From assembly GCA_900315265.1 (NCBI GenBank), contig OMYN01000005.1, positions 1-64,000 on the forward strand: a stretch of 64,000 bases of DNA. The letters run 5' to 3'. The translations under genes and the position numbers were made by a program. How positions within the stretch are numbered: the first letter of the stretch is position 1; each line of letters begins with the position of its first letter. The notes below the pieces were generated by a model. The model searched no databases. It was given only the letters and a program-made list of their open reading frames with translations, and had not been told where the DNA came from. This document shows positions 172 to 64,000 of the stretch, piece by piece. This stretch comes from an uncultured Eubacteriales bacterium. Its GTDB lineage: Bacteria > Bacillota > Clostridia > Lachnospirales > Bianqueaceae.

Positions 172-918
172 TTATGCTTTAACGATGTCGGCAAAATCTG
201 CCTTCAGGCTGGCGCCACCGACAAGTCCGCCGTCGATGTCAGGCATAGCGAACAGATCGGCTGCGTTTTTGGCATTAACGCTTCCGCCATACTGTACACG
301 GATCTGATCAGCGGTTTCCTGATCGAAGATCTCCGCAAGTACTTTACGGATAGCTCCGCAGACTTCCTCAGCCTGCTCGTTGGTAGCGGTGCGGCCGGTA
401 CCGATCGCCCAGATGGGTTCGTAAGCGATGACACAGTTTACAGCGTCTTCTTTCTTAACGTCCTTCATGGCGATCTTGACCTGCATACGGACAAGGTCCT
501 CGGTGATACCCTGCTCACGCTGCTCCAGCTTTTCGCCGACACAGATGATAGGTTTCAGACCATGCTCAATGGCCTTCAGGACCTTTTTATTGACCTGCTC
601 GTTGGTTTCTCCGAAGTAGCCGCGGCGCTCGGAATGGCCGAGAATAACATATTCACAGCCCGCGTCCTTGAGCATCTCGGGAGCGACCTCACCGGTATAA
701 GCACCCTTTTCTTCGTAGTACATGTTCTGAGCACCGATCTTGATGTTGGTACCCTTGACCAGCTCAACGGCCAGAGCGATGTCTACAAAAGGAGGACAGA
801 AGACAACGTCAACGTCCTTCTCATCACCTACCAGAGGCTTTAAAGTCTCGATGAGTTCCCTGGCTTCGGAAGGTGTCTTGTTCATCTTCCAGTTGCCGGC
901 AACAATTCTTCTGCGCAT
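172..918 (-). CDS. tpiA: Triosephosphate isomerase
   Basis: This enzyme interconverts dihydroxyacetone phosphate and glyceraldehyde 3-phosphate in the cytosol. The 248-residue product has the usual bacterial length. Visible active-site elements are Lys11 in AGNWKMN, the electrophile His95 in GHSERR, the catalytic base Glu167 in [11 protein letters not shown], and the phosphate-gripping GGSV near the C-terminus. I chose the ATG at 918 because an AAGGAG stands about 10 bases upstream; a TTG nine bases earlier would sit directly on that site. The gene follows pgk by 29 bases and shares its transcript, ending at the terminator at 101-138. Confidence 0.97.
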
Positions 919-947
919 TGGAATCAATCTCCTTACTTCAAGTTCGA

Positions 948-2147
948 TCAGTCTTTATCGTTAGCAGCTGCAACGCCGGGAAGCTCTTTGCCTTCCAGGA
1001 ATTCAAGGGAAGCGCCGCCGCCGGTGGAAATGTGGGTCATCTTGTCGCCGTAGCCAAGCTGGTTGACAGCTGCTGCGGAATCACCGCCGCCGATAATGGT
1101 AACAGCGTCTTTCAGGTTGGCAAGAGCCTCTGCGATCGCTTTGGTGCCGTGAGCAAATTTAGGCATTTCGAAGCAGCCCATAGGTCCGTTCCAAACGACC
1201 GTCTTTGCACCCTGAAGAGCTTCGGTGAACAGTTTTTCGGTTTCAGGTCCGATGTCCAGGCCTTCCCAGCCGTCCGGGATCTCACCGGTCTTGGCGACCT
1301 GAGTATTTGCGTCGTTGGAGAAGGAGTCGGCAATGATGTTATCAAGAGGAAGCAGCAGTTTAACACCCTTGTCCTTGGCTTTCTTGACCATATCGTTTGC
1401 ATATTCCAGATAATCGTCCTCGCACAGGGAGTTGCCTACCTTGCCGCCGGCTGCTTTAGCGAAAGTGTAAGCCATGCCGCCGCCGATGATCAGGACATCG
1501 ACCTTATCAAGCAGATTGTTGATAACGGAGATCTTGCTGGAAACCTTGGAACCGCCCAGGATAGCGACGAAAGGTCTCTTGGGGTTGTCGACAGCGTTGC
1601 CAAGGAAGGCGATCTCTTTCTCCATTAGGTAGCCGACAACAGAAGTCTTCACATATTTGGTAACACCGACATTGGAGCAGTGAGCGCGATGAGCGGTACC
1701 GAAGGCATCGTCAACAAATACATCGCACAGAGAAGCCAGCTCCTGGCTGAAGTTATCTTCGTTCTTGGTCTCTTCTTTACGATAACGGGTATTTTCAAGA
1801 AGCACTACATCGCCGTCTTTCATAGCGGCCACGGCAGCTTTTGCGTTGGGTCCGACAACTTCCGGATCAGCAGCAAATTTAACTTCCTGTCCAAGCAGTT
1901 CGCTCAGGCGTTTTGCAACAGGCGCCAGAGAAAGTTCGGGAACAGGCTGTCCTTTCGGTTTGCCCAGGTGGGAGCAAAGGATAACTCTGCCTCCGTCATT
2001 GATCAGTTTTTTGATGGTAGGAAGTGCGGCAACCAGACGGTTTTCGTCCGTGATCTTTCCATCCTGCAGCGGAACGTTGAAGTCGCAGCGGACCAGGACC
2101 TTCAAGCCCTTTACATTGATGTCGTCAACACTTTTTTTGTTCAGCAT
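948..2147 (-). CDS. pgk: Phosphoglycerate kinase
   Basis: Phosphoglycerate kinase makes ATP from 1,3-bisphosphoglycerate in glycolysis. The product is 399 residues, typical for bacteria. The N-terminal substrate domain carries VRCDFNVPL and SHLGKPKG, and the C-terminal nucleotide domain carries the glycine-rich GGGDSAAAV loop. An in-frame extension of 13 residues exists upstream, but the ATG at 2147 has an AAAGGGG Shine-Dalgarno and matches the family start (MLNKKSVDD). It is the first gene of a pgk-tpiA operon. gapA and gpm, frequent neighbours, are not in this window. Confidence 0.97.
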
Positions 2148-2239
2148 GGTAAAGTGAACCCCTTTCGTATAAAGTATTTTGTACACTAAACTTACGCAGT
2201 GATCCAGACGGAATCGTTTTCAAGGGTCCGTCTTTGATA

Positions 2240-2268
2240 ATTTTAGAACATTGCCCTGTAAAAAGCAA
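2240..2268 (-). promoter_or_regulatory. Predicted sigma-A promoter for pgk-tpiA
   Basis: On the minus strand a TTGCTT -35 box (2263-2268) and a TAAAAT -10 box (2240-2245) are separated by 17 bases. The promoter lies just past the 3' end of the mannosidase gene, leaving a leader of about 90 bases before pgk. That leader contains an AGACGGA/TCCGTCT stem that lacks a T run. Confidence 0.55.
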
Positions 2269-2273
2269 GGCAT

Positions 2274-3548
2274 TCACGCCTTTTTGGTGACTTCCAGATA
2301 ATGATAAACAAATTCGCTGAATAAAGAATTGGACCAGGCAAACCAGGGACGGGTAAACTGGGACGGATCGTTGCGGTATACGCCTTCGTGCATAAAGCCT
2401 GTATCTGCGTCGGATGAGATCAGCATGTCGAACAGACGGGTTACCTCTTCCGGATCCTGACTGGTCAGTCCCTGCATGGATAAAGCAATGTGCCATACAT
2501 ATTCGGGCGGAGTATGAGGACTGCCGATGCCGCTTATGGCACTCCCCTCGTAATAATAGGGATTCCGCTTTGAAAGGATCATGCGGCGGGTATTCTGATA
2601 GACAGGGTCATCCGCGGTCGTATAGCCAAGATAAGGAATGGACAGCAGACTGGGTACGTTAGCGTCTTCCATAAAATGATAATGGCCAAGGCCGTCACAC
2701 TCGTAGCAGTAGACATCTCCGAATTCCGGGTCATGGACTTTGCCGAAAGTCTCTATACCCTGGCGGATCTGAGCTGCCAGCCGGGACATTTGTAAAGCAA
2801 GATCACGGTCCTGATACACTTGGGTCAGTATCTCGGATGCATAACCGAGAACCACAACAGCGAACATCTCGGACGGGATCAGATATCCGTAGCGGCAGGC
2901 ATCGTCCGAAGGACGGAAGCCCGACCAGGTCATACCCGTATAGGCGACGGGATTGCCTTTTCCCCCGTTAGGAAGCGTGTCGGATTCAGGACAGTTGGTA
3001 CGCTCGAAGTAGTAAGCGGAATTCTCGTGATGGGTCTCCAGTGTCCATACATCAAAAATGGTCTTCAGGGCCTTGTGGAAGTTTTCATCCAGATGGCTGG
3101 TTTCCCCGCAGCTTTTCCACAGAAGATATGCTAGCTGGATCGGATAGCACAGGGAATCGACCTCATATTTATGCTCCCACACCCATGGGCCCTGCTTGGT
3201 CCTGTCATGGCTCCAGCATTTGCCGTTAGCTTCCTCGTTGAAGGCATTTGCATAGGGGTCGATCAGAATGTATTTTGCCTGGCGGCGGCTGAGGCCGCTG
3301 ATATACAGGCGGATCTCTTCATGATCTTTGGCAAGGGGCAGATAATGGCGTACCTGGGCGGAAGAATCCCTCAGCCACAGGGCGGGTATATCGCCGGTGA
3401 ATACGAAATAGGTGCCGTCCTCTTCCCGGCGGGTCGTCGTTGCCGCCGTGTTGGGATAGCAGTTGGCAAACAGCTTAGCGGCTTTGGAATCCTCTCCCAG
3501 GAGCTTGCCGACTCGGCGGATCTCAGGATCCAGGATCGTTTCAAACAT
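2274..3548 (-). CDS. Glycoside hydrolase family 125, exo-alpha-1,6-mannosidase
   Basis: GH125 enzymes are metal-independent, inverting exo-mannosidases that release mannose from alpha-1,6-linked glycans. The 424-residue product matches the family along its length, with the hallmark [14 protein letters not shown] near residues 52-65, a [14 protein letters not shown] segment and a C-terminal [13 protein letters not shown]. There is no signal peptide, so it probably acts on imported oligosaccharides in the cytosol. The manA gene at 30551-31489 could feed released and phosphorylated mannose into glycolysis (inference). A CAAGGCTC/GAGCCTTG stem (3560-3567 with 3597-3604) lies in the leader close to the ribosome binding site. 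Confidence 0.93.
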
Positions 3549-3659
3549 ACAGGTCTCCTCAAGGCTCTCATATAAATCTTAAACGGTTTTGTATAGGAGC
3601 CTTGGATTCATTTGAACTCAGTTATTCTGTGTGGTCTTGTTTCCCTGTATTATCCGAAC

Positions 3660-3681
3660 AAACGCTATCAAATGGCTATCA
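3660..3681 (+). repeat. Candidate attL: imperfect direct repeat copy 1
   Basis: This copy contains two gctatca units 11 bases apart and matches 12833-12854 at 19 of 22 positions. It is followed by a perfect 12-base palindrome, ggtgatatcacc (3685-3696), which is not repeated at the other end. The repeated gctatca units could also be integrase arm sites rather than the crossover core. Confidence 0.45.
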
Positions 3682-3711
3682 GCCGGTGATATCACCCTTC
3701 ACATAATCATA

Positions 3712-3834
3712 TTATAGGAGCCTCTTGAATCTTCCATTTGTGTCATTATCCAATGTCGAAGTCAGGGTGGTATTATTACGGTTTGTGCGTACATAGAAGC
3801 CCTCCTCGTCAAACTGGACTTTGACAGGCGAGAG
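3712..3834 (-). pseudogene. Possible C-terminal gene remnant next to the element end
   Basis: Directly after the stop of the small membrane protein gene, the same frame stays open for about 40 codons and then ends at TAA. It reads LSPVKVQFDEEGFYVRTNRN and continues to GRFKRLL. The composition looks coding-like, but there is no start codon or ribosome binding site. It may be the tail of a gene cut when this end of the element formed. I do not recognise the family. Confidence 0.25.
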
Positions 3835-4158
3835 TCATTTTTTGAATTTCCGATAAATCTTCCCATAAACTATTGGAAGAAGTGGGATGCCTATGATACA
3901 CCCTGCAATTAAGAGAATTCCACCCGCTTTCATATTCATAGCGCCAAGGATTGTGCCAACCCACATAATTAAAGAAAAGACAAGCCACATGATGCCATTT
4001 GCTCTGTTATAGGCAGAGATATCTGAGATTTCAGATTCTTTTACCGTGCTCCCTGACCAGAACCACATCGGCTTTTTGCATCGCCACGCATAAATCCCAA
4101 TCCCTGTAAACAACAGGCTAACGGGTATCATTATTATCAGCCATATAATGTCATCCAT
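3835..4158 (-). CDS. Small three-helix membrane protein of unknown function
   Basis: The 107-residue product has predicted membrane helices near residues 4-25, 55-73 and 78-98, a conserved-looking YNRANGIMW segment before the second helix and a basic C-terminus ending in KFKK. Similar small integral membrane proteins are widespread and uncharacterised in Firmicutes; the general layout recalls SdpI- or DUF3784-type proteins. It starts 25 bases after the GNAT-deaminase gene and probably shares its transcript. I assign no function. Confidence 0.7.
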   Translation of the reverse strand: MDDIIWLIIMIPVSLLFTGIGIYAWRCKKPMWFWSGSTVKESEISDISAYNRANGIMWLVFSLIMWVGTILGAMNMKAGGILLIAGCIIGIPLLPIVYGKIYRKFKK

Positions 4159-4183
4159 AGTTTTGTCTCCTACAAACGCCGAT

Positions 4184-5092
4184 TTATATCCACCACTCCG
4201 GCGTCAATTCGCCGAGGGTCATAATTCTTTCCTTCTCGTAATCCATCATAATCTCTATGTCCTTATATTTCGGCGGCATCAGCTGAACCATCAGTTCCCG
4301 GCAAGCTCCGCAGGGCGCTCCTGTTTTTCCGTTTGGCATGATTGCCAGCACCTTCTGTATTTCCTGCTCGCCGTTCGTGAGCATGTTAAAGATAGCATTA
4401 CGCTCGGCGCAGATCCCCAGCGTGGAACATGTATCCACACAAACACCAGTATATATCCTGCCGGATGCAGAAAGAATCGCCGCTGCGACACCGCCGGCCT
4501 CCACATAATCAGAAATCTTCCTTCCATTCTGCACAGCACTAGCGGCGGCAAACAGCCTGTCCCACTGCCATTGTTCTTTGGTCATACTGCTCACATGTCC
4601 GGTGCGCTTCTCGTGCATTAGCGGCACATCGACACCTTCCGATTTCCGCTGGTAGCGGAATCCGCATTTCTCCTGAACGCGCTTTGATTTGGTGTTGCCC
4701 TCATAGTAGCCGCACCAGACCTTGCTCATGCAGATGTCCTCAAAGGCATGACGGAGCATTTCCTTTACTGTTTCCGGCATTATGCCCTGTCCCCAGAATG
4801 GCTTCCCCAGCCAATATCCCAGTTCGCATTCATCATCCTGGTCGGTCATATCAGTATGTCCGTTCAACTTAAGCTCGATTGCACCTATAGCTATTCCATC
4901 CTCTTTCAGGCAGATGGCATAGGCTTCTTTACCATTAAAGACATTCTTTATAACATCCCTGCTCTCGCCAACGCTTTGATGAGGAGGCCACCCGGCAATC
5001 GGTCCCACATCGGGATCACTGGCGTATTTGTATAAATCCTCTGCATCGCTTACTTTCCAGCGGCGCAGAATCAGTCTTTTAGTTTCAAACAT
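4184..5092 (-). CDS. Fusion of a RimJ/RimL-type GNAT acetyltransferase and a cytidine deaminase-like domain
   Basis: Residues 1 to about 160 form a GNAT domain (ETKRLILRRW start, ELGYWLGKPFWGQGIMPE acetyl-CoA region). Residues from about 170 to 302 form a zinc deaminase domain with CAERNAIF (Cys228, Glu230) and PCGACRE (Cys261, Cys264). The first zinc ligand is Cys, as in tetrameric cytidine and blasticidin-S deaminases. The ATG at 5092 is chosen for its AGGAGAAAG site; an upstream in-frame extension lacks one. The preceding GNAT gene ends 10 bases before. A role in modifying and deaminating a nucleoside-like compound is an inference. Confidence 0.85.
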   Translation of the reverse strand: MFETKRLILRRWKVSDAEDLYKYASDPDVGPIAGWPPHQSVGESRDVIKNVFNGKEAYAICLKEDGIAIGAIELKLNGHTDMTDQDDECELGYWLGKPFWGQGIMPETVKEMLRHAFEDICMSKVWCGYYEGNTKSKRVQEKCGFRYQRKSEGVDVPLMHEKRTGHVSSMTKEQWQWDRLFAAASAVQNGRKISDYVEAGGVAAAILSASGRIYTGVCVDTCSTLGICAERNAIFNMLTNGEQEIQKVLAIMPNGKTGAPCGACRELMVQLMPPKYKDIEIMMDYEKERIMTLGELTPEWWI

Positions 5093-5102
5093 TTTCTTTC
5101 TC

Positions 5103-5555
5103 CTATTCCCCAGTTGATATATCCACATTCAGGCTCTTATTACGATAGTTCAGGTTCGTCCTGAGTGAATATCCCTGGCTTTCCCAGAATGCGTTAGCGG
5201 GATCGTTATCCTTGAATACAAGCCCGAATATCTTCTGAATACCCTCTTTCTTCAAAGCTTCCTCTGCTGTATGCACCAGTTTTCCGGCTATACCCATACG
5301 ACGATAGTCAGGATGGACGCACATATGATGGATGATCGCTCTTCTCCCATCATGGCCAGTCAGTATCACACCAATAATTTTATCTCCATCAACTGCAGCA
5401 TAGCACGTATTTGGATTCCGCTTCAGATACCTGTCGATTCCTTCACGGGAATCATCTACAGGGTTCAATGCTCGGCGGCTCTGCTCAGTCGCATTCCAGA
5501 GTTCATATATCGCATCATAATCATCTATAGTGACAATTCTTATCTCGTACTTCAT
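5103..5555 (-). CDS. GNAT family N-acetyltransferase
   Basis: The 150-residue protein is a single GNAT domain. It has the N-terminal IRIVTIDDYDAIYELWN helix region, a central MCVHPDYRRMGIAGKLV segment that fits the acetyl-CoA binding motif (R/QxxGxG/A), and a C-terminal ANAFWESQGY motif. The substrate cannot be told from sequence. It precedes the GNAT-deaminase fusion by 10 bases, so the two are likely translated from one message. An AGAGG site precedes the ATG at 5555. Confidence 0.85.
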   Translation of the reverse strand: MKYEIRIVTIDDYDAIYELWNATEQSRRALNPVDDSREGIDRYLKRNPNTCYAAVDGDKIIGVILTGHDGRRAIIHHMCVHPDYRRMGIAGKLVHTAEEALKKEGIQKIFGLVFKDNDPANAFWESQGYSLRTNLNYRNKSLNVDISTGE

Positions 5556-5633
5556 AGTGCCTCTTTTCCTCTATTATTCTTCTCGTTTCAAAGTCTTTTC
5601 CGGCACCTATTCGAGCACCTGATATTTCCGTAA

Positions 5634-29154: not shown

Positions 29155-29165
29155 ATCTGAATTTT

Positions 29166-29540
29166 GAGTTTCCCTGTAAGCCGAGTTCTGTCGTGGACGA
29201 TCATCTATCTTGGGCAGACGTTGCCGCCTGTCTCACGCGACCTACCCGAAAACACGACGGGCCGCCGTGTCGTTTTCTGTTCGGTCTTGCTCCGGATGGG
29301 GTTTGCAGAGCCTTTTCTGTCACCAGAAAAGCGGTGAGCTCTTACCTCGCCTTTTCACCCTTACCAAAACGATAGGTTCTGGCGGTATCTTTCTGCTGCA
29401 CTTTCCTGAAGGTCACCCTTACTGGACGTTATCCAGCATCCTGCCCTGTGGAGCTCGGACTTTCCTCACAGGCACCCTTTCGGACCGGGTAAAGTAAGCT
29501 GCTTTATCCGGTTTACCTGCGCGATCGTCTGGGAAACTCA
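29166..29540 (-). ncRNA. rnpB: RNase P RNA, bacterial type A
   Basis: The catalytic RNA that matures tRNA 5' ends is read on the minus strand. The ends pair as P1 (GAGTTTCCC with GGGAAACTC). Diagnostic conserved segments are GAGGAAAGTCCGAGCTCC in the P3-P4 region and ACAGAACTCGGCTTA near the 3' end, which form the P4 pseudoknot. The remaining length of about 375 bases and layout fit type A rather than the Bacillus type B. It follows glcK by 30 bases, so it may be co-transcribed with it or use a weak promoter around 29545-29565. Confidence 0.93.
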
Positions 29541-63505: not shown

Positions 63506-63535
63506 TTGACTTCATGCTTAGTACATTTGTATAAT
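63506..63535 (+). promoter_or_regulatory. Predicted promoter for the lysine riboswitch transcript
   Basis: TTGACT (63506-63511) and consensus TATAAT (63530-63535) are 18 bases apart. Transcription would start near 63542, just ahead of the aptamer. Confidence 0.8.
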
Positions 63536-63552
63536 CCATTCATGTCTAACAG

Positions 63553-63709
63553 AATAGAGGTAGCGGTGCAGATCAGTAATCAGGACAGCCGGCAGGCAGC
63601 GACCCTGATGAAAGGCAATCACCGCCGAACGCGGAAAACCGGCAGGTTTTTCGCGTGGGGACAGTTGAGAAGATCTCTGCCACTCCTTCGTACGTGAAGA
63701 GGCGCTATT
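63553..63709 (+). ncRNA. Lysine riboswitch aptamer (L box)
   Basis: The sequence follows the lysine aptamer order: AATAGAGGTAGCGG with GC, AGTA, GAAAGGCAATCACCGCCGAA, a GGGGACAGTTGA segment, and a closing AGGCGCTATT. The ends pair as P1 (AATAG 63553-63557 with CTATT 63705-63709). GAAAGG followed by CGCCGAA is the most specific part. A terminator lies 13 bases further on. ACAGTTGA at 63661-63668 can pair with TCAACTGT at 63721-63728, giving the alternative fold. Confidence 0.85.
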
Positions 63710-63722
63710 AGCATTGAAGATC

Positions 63723-63754
63723 AACTGTATGCGGTAGCCGCATACAGTTTTTTT
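63723..63754 (+). terminator. Riboswitch-controlled terminator
   Basis: AACTGTATGCGG pairs perfectly with CCGCATACAGTT around TAG, followed by TTTTTTTATT. The left arm overlaps TCAACTGT, which can instead pair with ACAGTTGA inside the aptamer, so lysine binding should favour termination. Confidence 0.88.
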
Positions 63755-63827
63755 ATTGTTTATTGGGCTGCTGACGGGACGAAGGATTCAGCTTAGACAA
63801 AAAATACATCCCTAAAGGAGAATCCGT

Positions 63828-64000
63828 ATGATTCAATTTCTCGGCTGGCTGGACGGAGTTCTGTGGGGTACCCCTCTTCTCGTTCTGATCCTGGGCACCG
63901 GCACTTATTTTACCATCCGTTCCAAGTTCTTCCAGGTACGCCACTTCGGCTTTATCATGAAGAACACCTTCGGAAAGATCTTTACCGGCAAGGTCGATGC
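63828..64000 (+). CDS. AGCS family sodium:amino acid symporter (N-terminal part, runs off the right edge)
   Basis: The first 57 residues, MIQFLGWLDGVLWGTPLLVL onward to GTYFTIRSKFFQVRHFGF, match the N-terminus of alanine/glycine:cation symporters. The ATG follows CTAAAGGAGAATCCGT. Transcription is predicted to depend on the lysine riboswitch and terminator upstream. This suggests that the carrier imports lysine or a lysine-linked amino acid, although most family members are described for alanine or glycine. Confidence 0.85.
   Translation, partial: MIQFLGWLDGVLWGTPLLVLILGTGTYFTIRSKFFQVRHFGFIMKNTFGKIFTGKVD

Follow-up and report, generated by a model that had tools for sequence, protein, structure and literature searches.

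A variant lysine riboswitch ahead of an AGCS symporter and amidohydrolase operon in Clostridia

The window, a 64,000-nucleotide stretch of contig OMYN01000005.1 from an uncultured Eubacteriales bacterium, ends in the leader and 5' part of a gene for an AGCS-type sodium symporter. A sequence-only reading had placed a lysine riboswitch before this gene, with aptamer, terminator and AGCS start in that order. This was borne out: all three were located (63547-63715, 63723-63749 and 63828), and the Rfam model RF00168, whose gathering score is 30, scores the aptamer at 65.0 bits. The match covers the full model (1-182) on the + strand with an E of 8e-17 in a 481-base search. The region has three promoter-like sites where shuffles average 1.2, and one terminator where they average 0.2. 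The principal features are as follows.

63506-63535, + strand: promoter-like site, TTGACT-N18-TATAAT (11 of 12 matches; a consensus match only)
63547-63715, + strand: lysine riboswitch aptamer, P1 to P5 (RF00168; covariation)
63588-63592, + strand: L2 segment GCCGG, possible kissing partner of L3 (by eye)
63639-63643, + strand: L3 segment CCGGC, possible kissing partner of L2 (by eye)
63723-63749, + strand: intrinsic terminator hairpin, then T-run (12 pairs, loop of 3, -17.8 kcal/mol)
63814-63820, + strand: ribosome-binding site AAAGGAG (by eye)
63828-64000, + strand: AGCS symporter gene, 5' part in the window (start codon 63828; 498 amino acids)

The AGCS gene runs past the window (contig 63828-65324), and an amidohydrolase gene starts at contig 65325, the next base after its end (3325 and 3326 in the numbering of locus L004). 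Read with the contig beyond the window, the AGCS protein scores 345.9 bits with TIGR00835 (cut-off 272.65) and 336.1 with PF01235 (cut-off 24), and the sole solved structure that it matches is the alanine symporter AgcS (6cse, E 1.8e-58). The second protein of the operon belongs to Amidohydro_3 (PF07969, 340.7 bits against a cut-off of 29.7). It is called YtcJ-like here, a name that we chose from the usage of PF07969/COG1574 in PMC13081902. Its nearest PDB entries, 3igh and 3icj, are both uncharacterised metal-dependent hydrolases. Residues H63, H65, K292, H344, H376 and D439 are the same in all 24 amidohydrolases compared and make up a complete metal-ligand set; the Amidohydro_3 enzyme described in the available text of PMC13081902 has four His, Lys and Asp in the same order, as judged by comparing patterns rather than by alignment. 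Elsewhere in the same genome a second lysine riboswitch (94.8 bits) precedes a dapA-dapB-dapD-type operon, which indicates probable lysine synthesis in this cell and a further unit under such an RNA. These dap-type genes were named by eye from translations, and the M20 protein was checked by profile.

Twenty-one operon aptamers, the window sequence included, were aligned (alignment A2) and used to build a covariance model, R1. R1 recovers the window aptamer in its own genome at 100.6 bits, the window being one of its training sequences. Because R1 matches all 21 of these sequences by construction, RF00168 was run on each, and it scores 64.3-106.9 bits in the 20 relatives. The family's consensus core stretches (AGAGG..GC, AGUA, GAAAGG, GCCGAA, the AA of L4 and the ACU before P5) are kept in the window, as read from its RF00168 match and from alignment A2, and the GCCGG and CCGGC segments are also present, by eye, in the relative L094. 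The covariation score of the 21 aptamers is 0.345 against 0.157 in shuffles, with 0 of 500 as high, and falls to at most 0.282 when the alignment is slid by up to 3 columns. Both the cells paired (64.0 percent) and the cells changed on both sides (159) exceed all shuffles; the pairs changed on both sides (32 vs 31.4) and the further pair types (92 vs 87.7) do not. Pairing is highest in P1 (97 percent), followed by P5 (80), inner P2 (74) and P4, the worst at 33 percent, where covariation is not supported by this alignment. The weak P4 pairing is probably due to the window and L094 being out of register there.

Within this conserved core, two features at the floor of the binding pocket set the operon aptamers apart.

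63685, + strand: C at the place of G141, in ACUC (C in 21 of 21 operon aptamers)
63699-63708, + strand: GAGGCGCTAT, the P5-P1 junction with one extra base, then the 3' strand of P1 (alignment A2)

G141, in the Thermotoga maritima numbering of PMC3764141 (the position was mapped by us), forms with G11, A162 and G163 a purine quartet at the floor of the ligand pocket, according to the available text of that paper. The window has C and an extra base where this quartet would lie under the ligand. All 21 operon aptamers have ACUC in place of the ACUG of lysine riboswitches, and the later segment, GAGG-N-GCTAT in DNA letters, is invariant among them; as RNA it is GAGG-N-GCUAU, one base more than the GGAG-N-GCUA or the like found elsewhere. 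As Rfam membership is decided by score, the window RNA is a variant of RF00168, although G141 is replaced. We infer that a C-G pair replaces the G-A pair at the pocket floor; covariation is absent for this pair because both of its sides are invariant among the 21.

How widespread is this change? G141 is kept in all 70 lysine riboswitches sampled from the same order, and the variant form ACTC...GAGG-N-GCTA occurs in 0 of these 70, which precede genes for DapA (31), Asd (28) and Na_H_antiporter proteins (11). The sample was non-random, consisting of the 30 best-scoring matches and 40 chosen among the matches listed, down to about 108 bits. Ten were read by eye, and one, L167, has UUGUC rather than CUGUC but keeps the G. 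An exact-pattern search of 392 genomes of the order served as a check on sampling bias. The pattern, which fits 21 of 21 known operon variants, was found in 2 of the 392, both times before an AGCS-amidohydrolase operon; an RF00168 match was present in 263 of them. Among 391 genomes of the class (19 of them also in the order set) the only match was the window itself. Reversed-pattern controls matched in 5 of 392 order genomes and 2 of 391 class genomes; taken by itself the pattern is therefore weak evidence, and the true matches rest on their RF00168 scores.

A contig search with the amidohydrolase gave 154 relatives, of which 80 were kept. AGCS lies directly before the enzyme in 16 of these 80 loci, and several others are cut close upstream. 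A riboswitch is present in 14 of 14 AGCS-enzyme loci with an intact leader (L014 and L036 are cut before it): 13 score 79.3-106.9 bits by RF00168, and L085 scores 85.7. L094, from a genome of the same taxonomic order and with an AGCS protein 87 percent identical, has the riboswitch too (68.3 bits). In five of five loci (L089-L093) an APC permease takes the place before the enzyme; the RF00168 riboswitch is found at L089, L090, L091 and L093, and L092 retains only a cut 3' piece. FrlA, a fructoselysine carrier, is the best equivalog model for these permeases at 165-176 bits, a score far below its cut-off of 800 and also below two general subfamily models. The enzyme stands alone behind a lysine riboswitch in L086 and L088 (40 percent identical). 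Compared with the enzyme of the window's operon, it is 38-42 percent identical in the loci with an APC permease or with the enzyme alone, and L025 reaches 64 percent. In L025 a 96.1-bit lysine riboswitch with an unaltered core precedes yfcC-like, M20 and YtcJ-like genes in one apparent unit (882-5602); the carrier scores 259.4 bits with the YfcC model, under the cut-off of 500, and the M20 protein 242.2 bits with TIGR01891, over its cut-off. Taken over all enzyme loci, R1 matches 23 of 80 at E up to 1 and has no match in 57 of 80, several of them cut close upstream. The finding is real and conserved; in kind it is unremarkable, a riboswitch of known class heading a transport operon.

Two broader generalisations were rejected. 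A lysine switch does not accompany every AGCS-amidohydrolase pair, as L095, L096, L097 and L197 are without one. Nor does it mark AGCS genes generally, since 32 other-AGCS loci (a few of them, such as L011, L013 and L101, cut close upstream) have no R1 match and 70 of 70 sampled switches head other genes. L095 has a different leader at about 1260-1420, ending in a terminator-like hairpin by eye, and L096 likewise; Rfam matches to the L095 leader number two, both at chance level (E 1.8 and 4.4). Downstream of the amidohydrolase, a GNAT acetyltransferase-type gene is seen in four loci (L034, L036, L037 and L047) and an Asparaginase_2-type gene in four (L051, L054, L057 and L062), these labels coming from a scan of one protein per cluster.

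The AGCS proteins themselves were compared in a tree of 42 rows: 16 switch-linked sequences, L095-L097, and 23 taken from the 32 loci with other AGCS copies. The tree does not include the cut loci L014 and L036 or the later finds L195-L197. The 16 switch-linked proteins form one group (100/99), and their sister is the enzyme-linked but switch-less L095-L097 (96/98 for both together). L072 sits on a long branch. Residues that are constant in all 16, recur in the sister and are seen at most once among the 23 other AGCS rows include Y293, W299 (in NEAGW) and T301 around NEAG, together with F167, T169 and S384. We read this as suggesting a substrate common to the switch-linked group and its sister, unlike that of other AGCS copies. 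The range of the family already exceeds alanine and glycine, as Campylobacter GutA takes glutamine (PMC12795558, available text).

Control of the operon would depend on what competes with the terminator, and two candidate pairings were compared.

63661-63668, + strand: ACAGTTGA, P4-strand antiterminator candidate inside P4 (exact complement of TCAACTGT)
63721-63728, + strand: TCAACTGT, partner of the P4-strand candidate (exact complement of ACAGTTGA)
63704-63714, + strand: 3' strand of P1 and following bases, P1-type antiterminator strand (pairs with 63729-63738)
63729-63738, + strand: 5' arm and loop of the terminator, partner of 63704-63714 (duplex calculation)

The P4-strand pairing is the one proposed from the sequence alone. 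It stands as an exact complement that can fold (-8.9 kcal/mol), and only 87 of 5000 Markov-sampled aptamer bodies gave an exact complement of at least 8 with 63717-63734; it fails on conservation in the closest relative. There, in L094, ACAGTTGA occurs elsewhere, at leader position 33 (in P2 by reading) and not in P4, and TCAACTGT is absent from the leader. Of four truncated transcripts long enough to include the partner of the P4 strand, those ending at 63728, 63733 and 63741 show this pairing in their minimum-energy folds, and the one ending at 63738 shows the P1-type pairing. The P1-type duplex of the window has a value of -9.6, or -10.2 with more flank, and 57 of 1000 shuffles are as low; that of L094 reaches -12.6 (11 of 1000). 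These shuffles are of the P1 strand, from the GCTA of P1 onward, and the hairpin of L015 was, by reading, picked wrongly. For 11 of the 21 operon leaders, among them that of L094, no more than 50 of 1000 shuffles are as low; examples are L016, from Fusicatenibacter (1 of 1000), and L021, L090 and L091 (0 of 1000). In the other 10, the window among them, the pairing does not beat shuffles at this level, nor is it above shuffles in L089 (963 of 1000) or in the dap leader L005 (624 of 1000). With values of like strength in the window (-8.9 for the P4-strand and -9.6 for the P1-type pairing), the two candidates cannot be ranked firmly. Under either pairing, ligand binding that keeps the aptamer closed would favour the terminator, so that control would be transcriptional and OFF whichever antiterminator is used.

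What would such a switch control? Our preferred reading, to which we give a probability of about 0.47, is a lysine OFF switch that acts on transcription of an operon of two genes for the uptake and hydrolysis of amide-blocked lysine. When lysine is scarce, an antiterminator formed by the P1 3' strand and the terminator 5' arm, or perhaps here by the P4 pairing, would prevent the terminator, and the AGCS symporter and YtcJ-like amidohydrolase would be made. The symporter would import, with sodium, lysine with its side-chain amine masked as an amide (N-epsilon-acyl-lysine or similar); such a molecule would be a neutral zwitterion, of the kind that AGCS carriers take. Inside the cell the amidohydrolase would cut the amide to give free lysine, which would bind the aptamer, hold P1 closed and allow the terminator to stop transcription. 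The aptamer, terminator, promoter-like site, gene order, conservation and complete metal-ligand set were all computed; the ligand, control direction, substrate and exact antiterminator are what we infer from them.

It is the second gene that points to amide-blocked lysine, as it encodes an amidohydrolase; control by lysine need not mean that free lysine is carried. N-epsilon-acyl-lysine or similar is our best guess for the substrate of the enzyme, drawn from two published epsilon-lysine acylases, from lysine-type control in four architectures and from the FrlA-like alternative permease. According to the available text of PMC10699109, the epsilon-lysine acylase SmELA is classified as a YtcJ-like amidohydrolase, and SgELA hydrolyses N-epsilon-acetyl-L-lysine. 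They resemble the operon enzyme in being YtcJ-like and metal-dependent with lysine as product; both are Streptomyces enzymes, likened to it by description (PMC10699109). In L089 and L025 an unaltered core precedes genes for relatives of the operon enzyme, which makes lysine a fitting signal for the pathway.

Other readings have to be weighed against this one. The AGCS protein may import free lysine, with the amidohydrolase serving another peptide- or amide-bound lysine such as an isopeptide available alongside, though this seems unlikely to us. A lysine carrier would be ordinary under such an RNA, as the switches sampled from the order head lysine synthesis genes and nhaC-type carriers, and four relatives of the enzyme adjoin Asparaginase_2-type genes. 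The Asparaginase_2 family includes isoaspartyl peptidases. However, the AGCS carriers reported in the available text of PMC11477304 and PMC12795558 take neutral alanine, glycine and glutamine. Relatives of the enzyme also join lysine riboswitches without any AGCS, so the tie between enzyme and lysine extends beyond the AGCS carrier. Lowest in our estimation, and quite improbable, is an AGCS carrier of the usual kind, taking alanine, glycine or glutamine, with an enzyme for some unrelated substrate, lysine control being an indirect link of the sort proposed for NhaC and pH (PMC11477304). PF01235 membership and the match to AgcS alone among solved structures would suit it, as would the several reactions performed by Amidohydro_3 enzymes, bile salt hydrolysis among them (PMC13081902, available text); the separate grouping of the switch-linked AGCS proteins (100/99), with fixed residues such as W299, speaks against it.

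An altered aptamer core may mean an altered ligand. In its strict form, in which the aptamer senses a relative of lysine, such as an imported derivative, and this rather than lysine controls the operon, the idea seems to us less likely than free-lysine import. It would account for C141 and the extra base being present in 21 of 21 operon aptamers and neither in 70 of 70 sampled others, and for both exact matches in the 392 order genomes lying before the AGCS-amidohydrolase operon. The replaced base belongs to the purine quartet of the pocket floor (PMC3764141), and core-variant aptamers of other classes have switched ligand (PMC9481103, available text). Yet the other core positions are kept, the OFF layout suits an end product better than a substrate, L089 and L025 place relatives of the enzyme under unaltered lysine cores, and the reversed control pattern in 5 of 392 genomes means that the pattern itself is not rare. 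A wider proposal, also doubtful, is that the operon aptamers form a variant lysine riboswitch class in which C141 and the base inserted by G163 shift ligand choice, the RNA either reading a lysine derivative or tuning its lysine affinity to N-epsilon-acyl-lysine salvage by an AGCS or APC symporter and a YtcJ-like deacylase.

Several known systems resemble the proposed lysine OFF switch and its salvage operon in part. RF00168 copies before asd, dapA and nhaC-type genes of the same order share the five-helix aptamer, conserved core and terminator platform, whereas the operon aptamers have C for G141 and the extra P5-P1 base and head AGCS, APC and amidohydrolase genes. In Clostridioides difficile yfcC and an M20D amidohydrolase gene stand behind a lysine riboswitch, so that switch, carrier and amidohydrolase likewise share one unit (PMC11477304, available text), but carrier and hydrolase there belong to different families from those of the window; L025 is a unit of this kind with a YtcJ-like enzyme added. 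Glycine riboswitches precede AGCS genes in Streptococcus pyogenes, Vibrio cholerae and C. difficile, with OFF control reported for two, in the available text of PMC5829553 and PMC11477304. An amino-acid riboswitch thus heads AGCS there too, whereas the window has a lysine-family aptamer and an amidohydrolase as second gene. AgcS (6cse) and GutA (PMC12795558, available text) belong to the same family as the operon carrier but are alanine or glutamine carriers, and the operon AGCS clade has fixed residues of its own.

A lysine riboswitch joined to AGCS was not found in the accessible text of the literature searched, which takes in few subscription papers. There was no co-mention in it of lysine riboswitch with 'lysine acylase' or 'acetyl-lysine', and neither 'symporter' nor 'sodium' appears in the main text of PMC5584792, a survey of lysine riboswitches. 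The RF00168 family already holds the variants, since RF00168 scores them well. What seems new is the link between the core variant and the AGCS-amidohydrolase operon; neither the salvage-type operon nor the co-travelling pocket-floor change was found in print in the accessible text of that literature. Through this association two clades, one of AGCS carriers and one of uncharacterised amidohydrolases, here mostly from gut and rumen Clostridia, are linked to lysine, and a route by which blocked lysine, as in acetylated or heat-modified protein, would be salvaged becomes directly testable. It also provides a natural set of aptamers with one pocket-floor switch, suited to asking how lysine riboswitches choose their ligand.

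The window aptamer is listed neither by a gathering-mode Rfam scan of the whole window nor by two whole-genome RF00168 searches, which, given its 65 bits in the short-region search, we attribute to speed filters acting on a divergent copy. Annotation pipelines that use such filters may therefore overlook divergent copies. The sole gathering-mode Rfam match in the window is a class A RNase P RNA at 29161-29540 on the - strand (315.6 bits).
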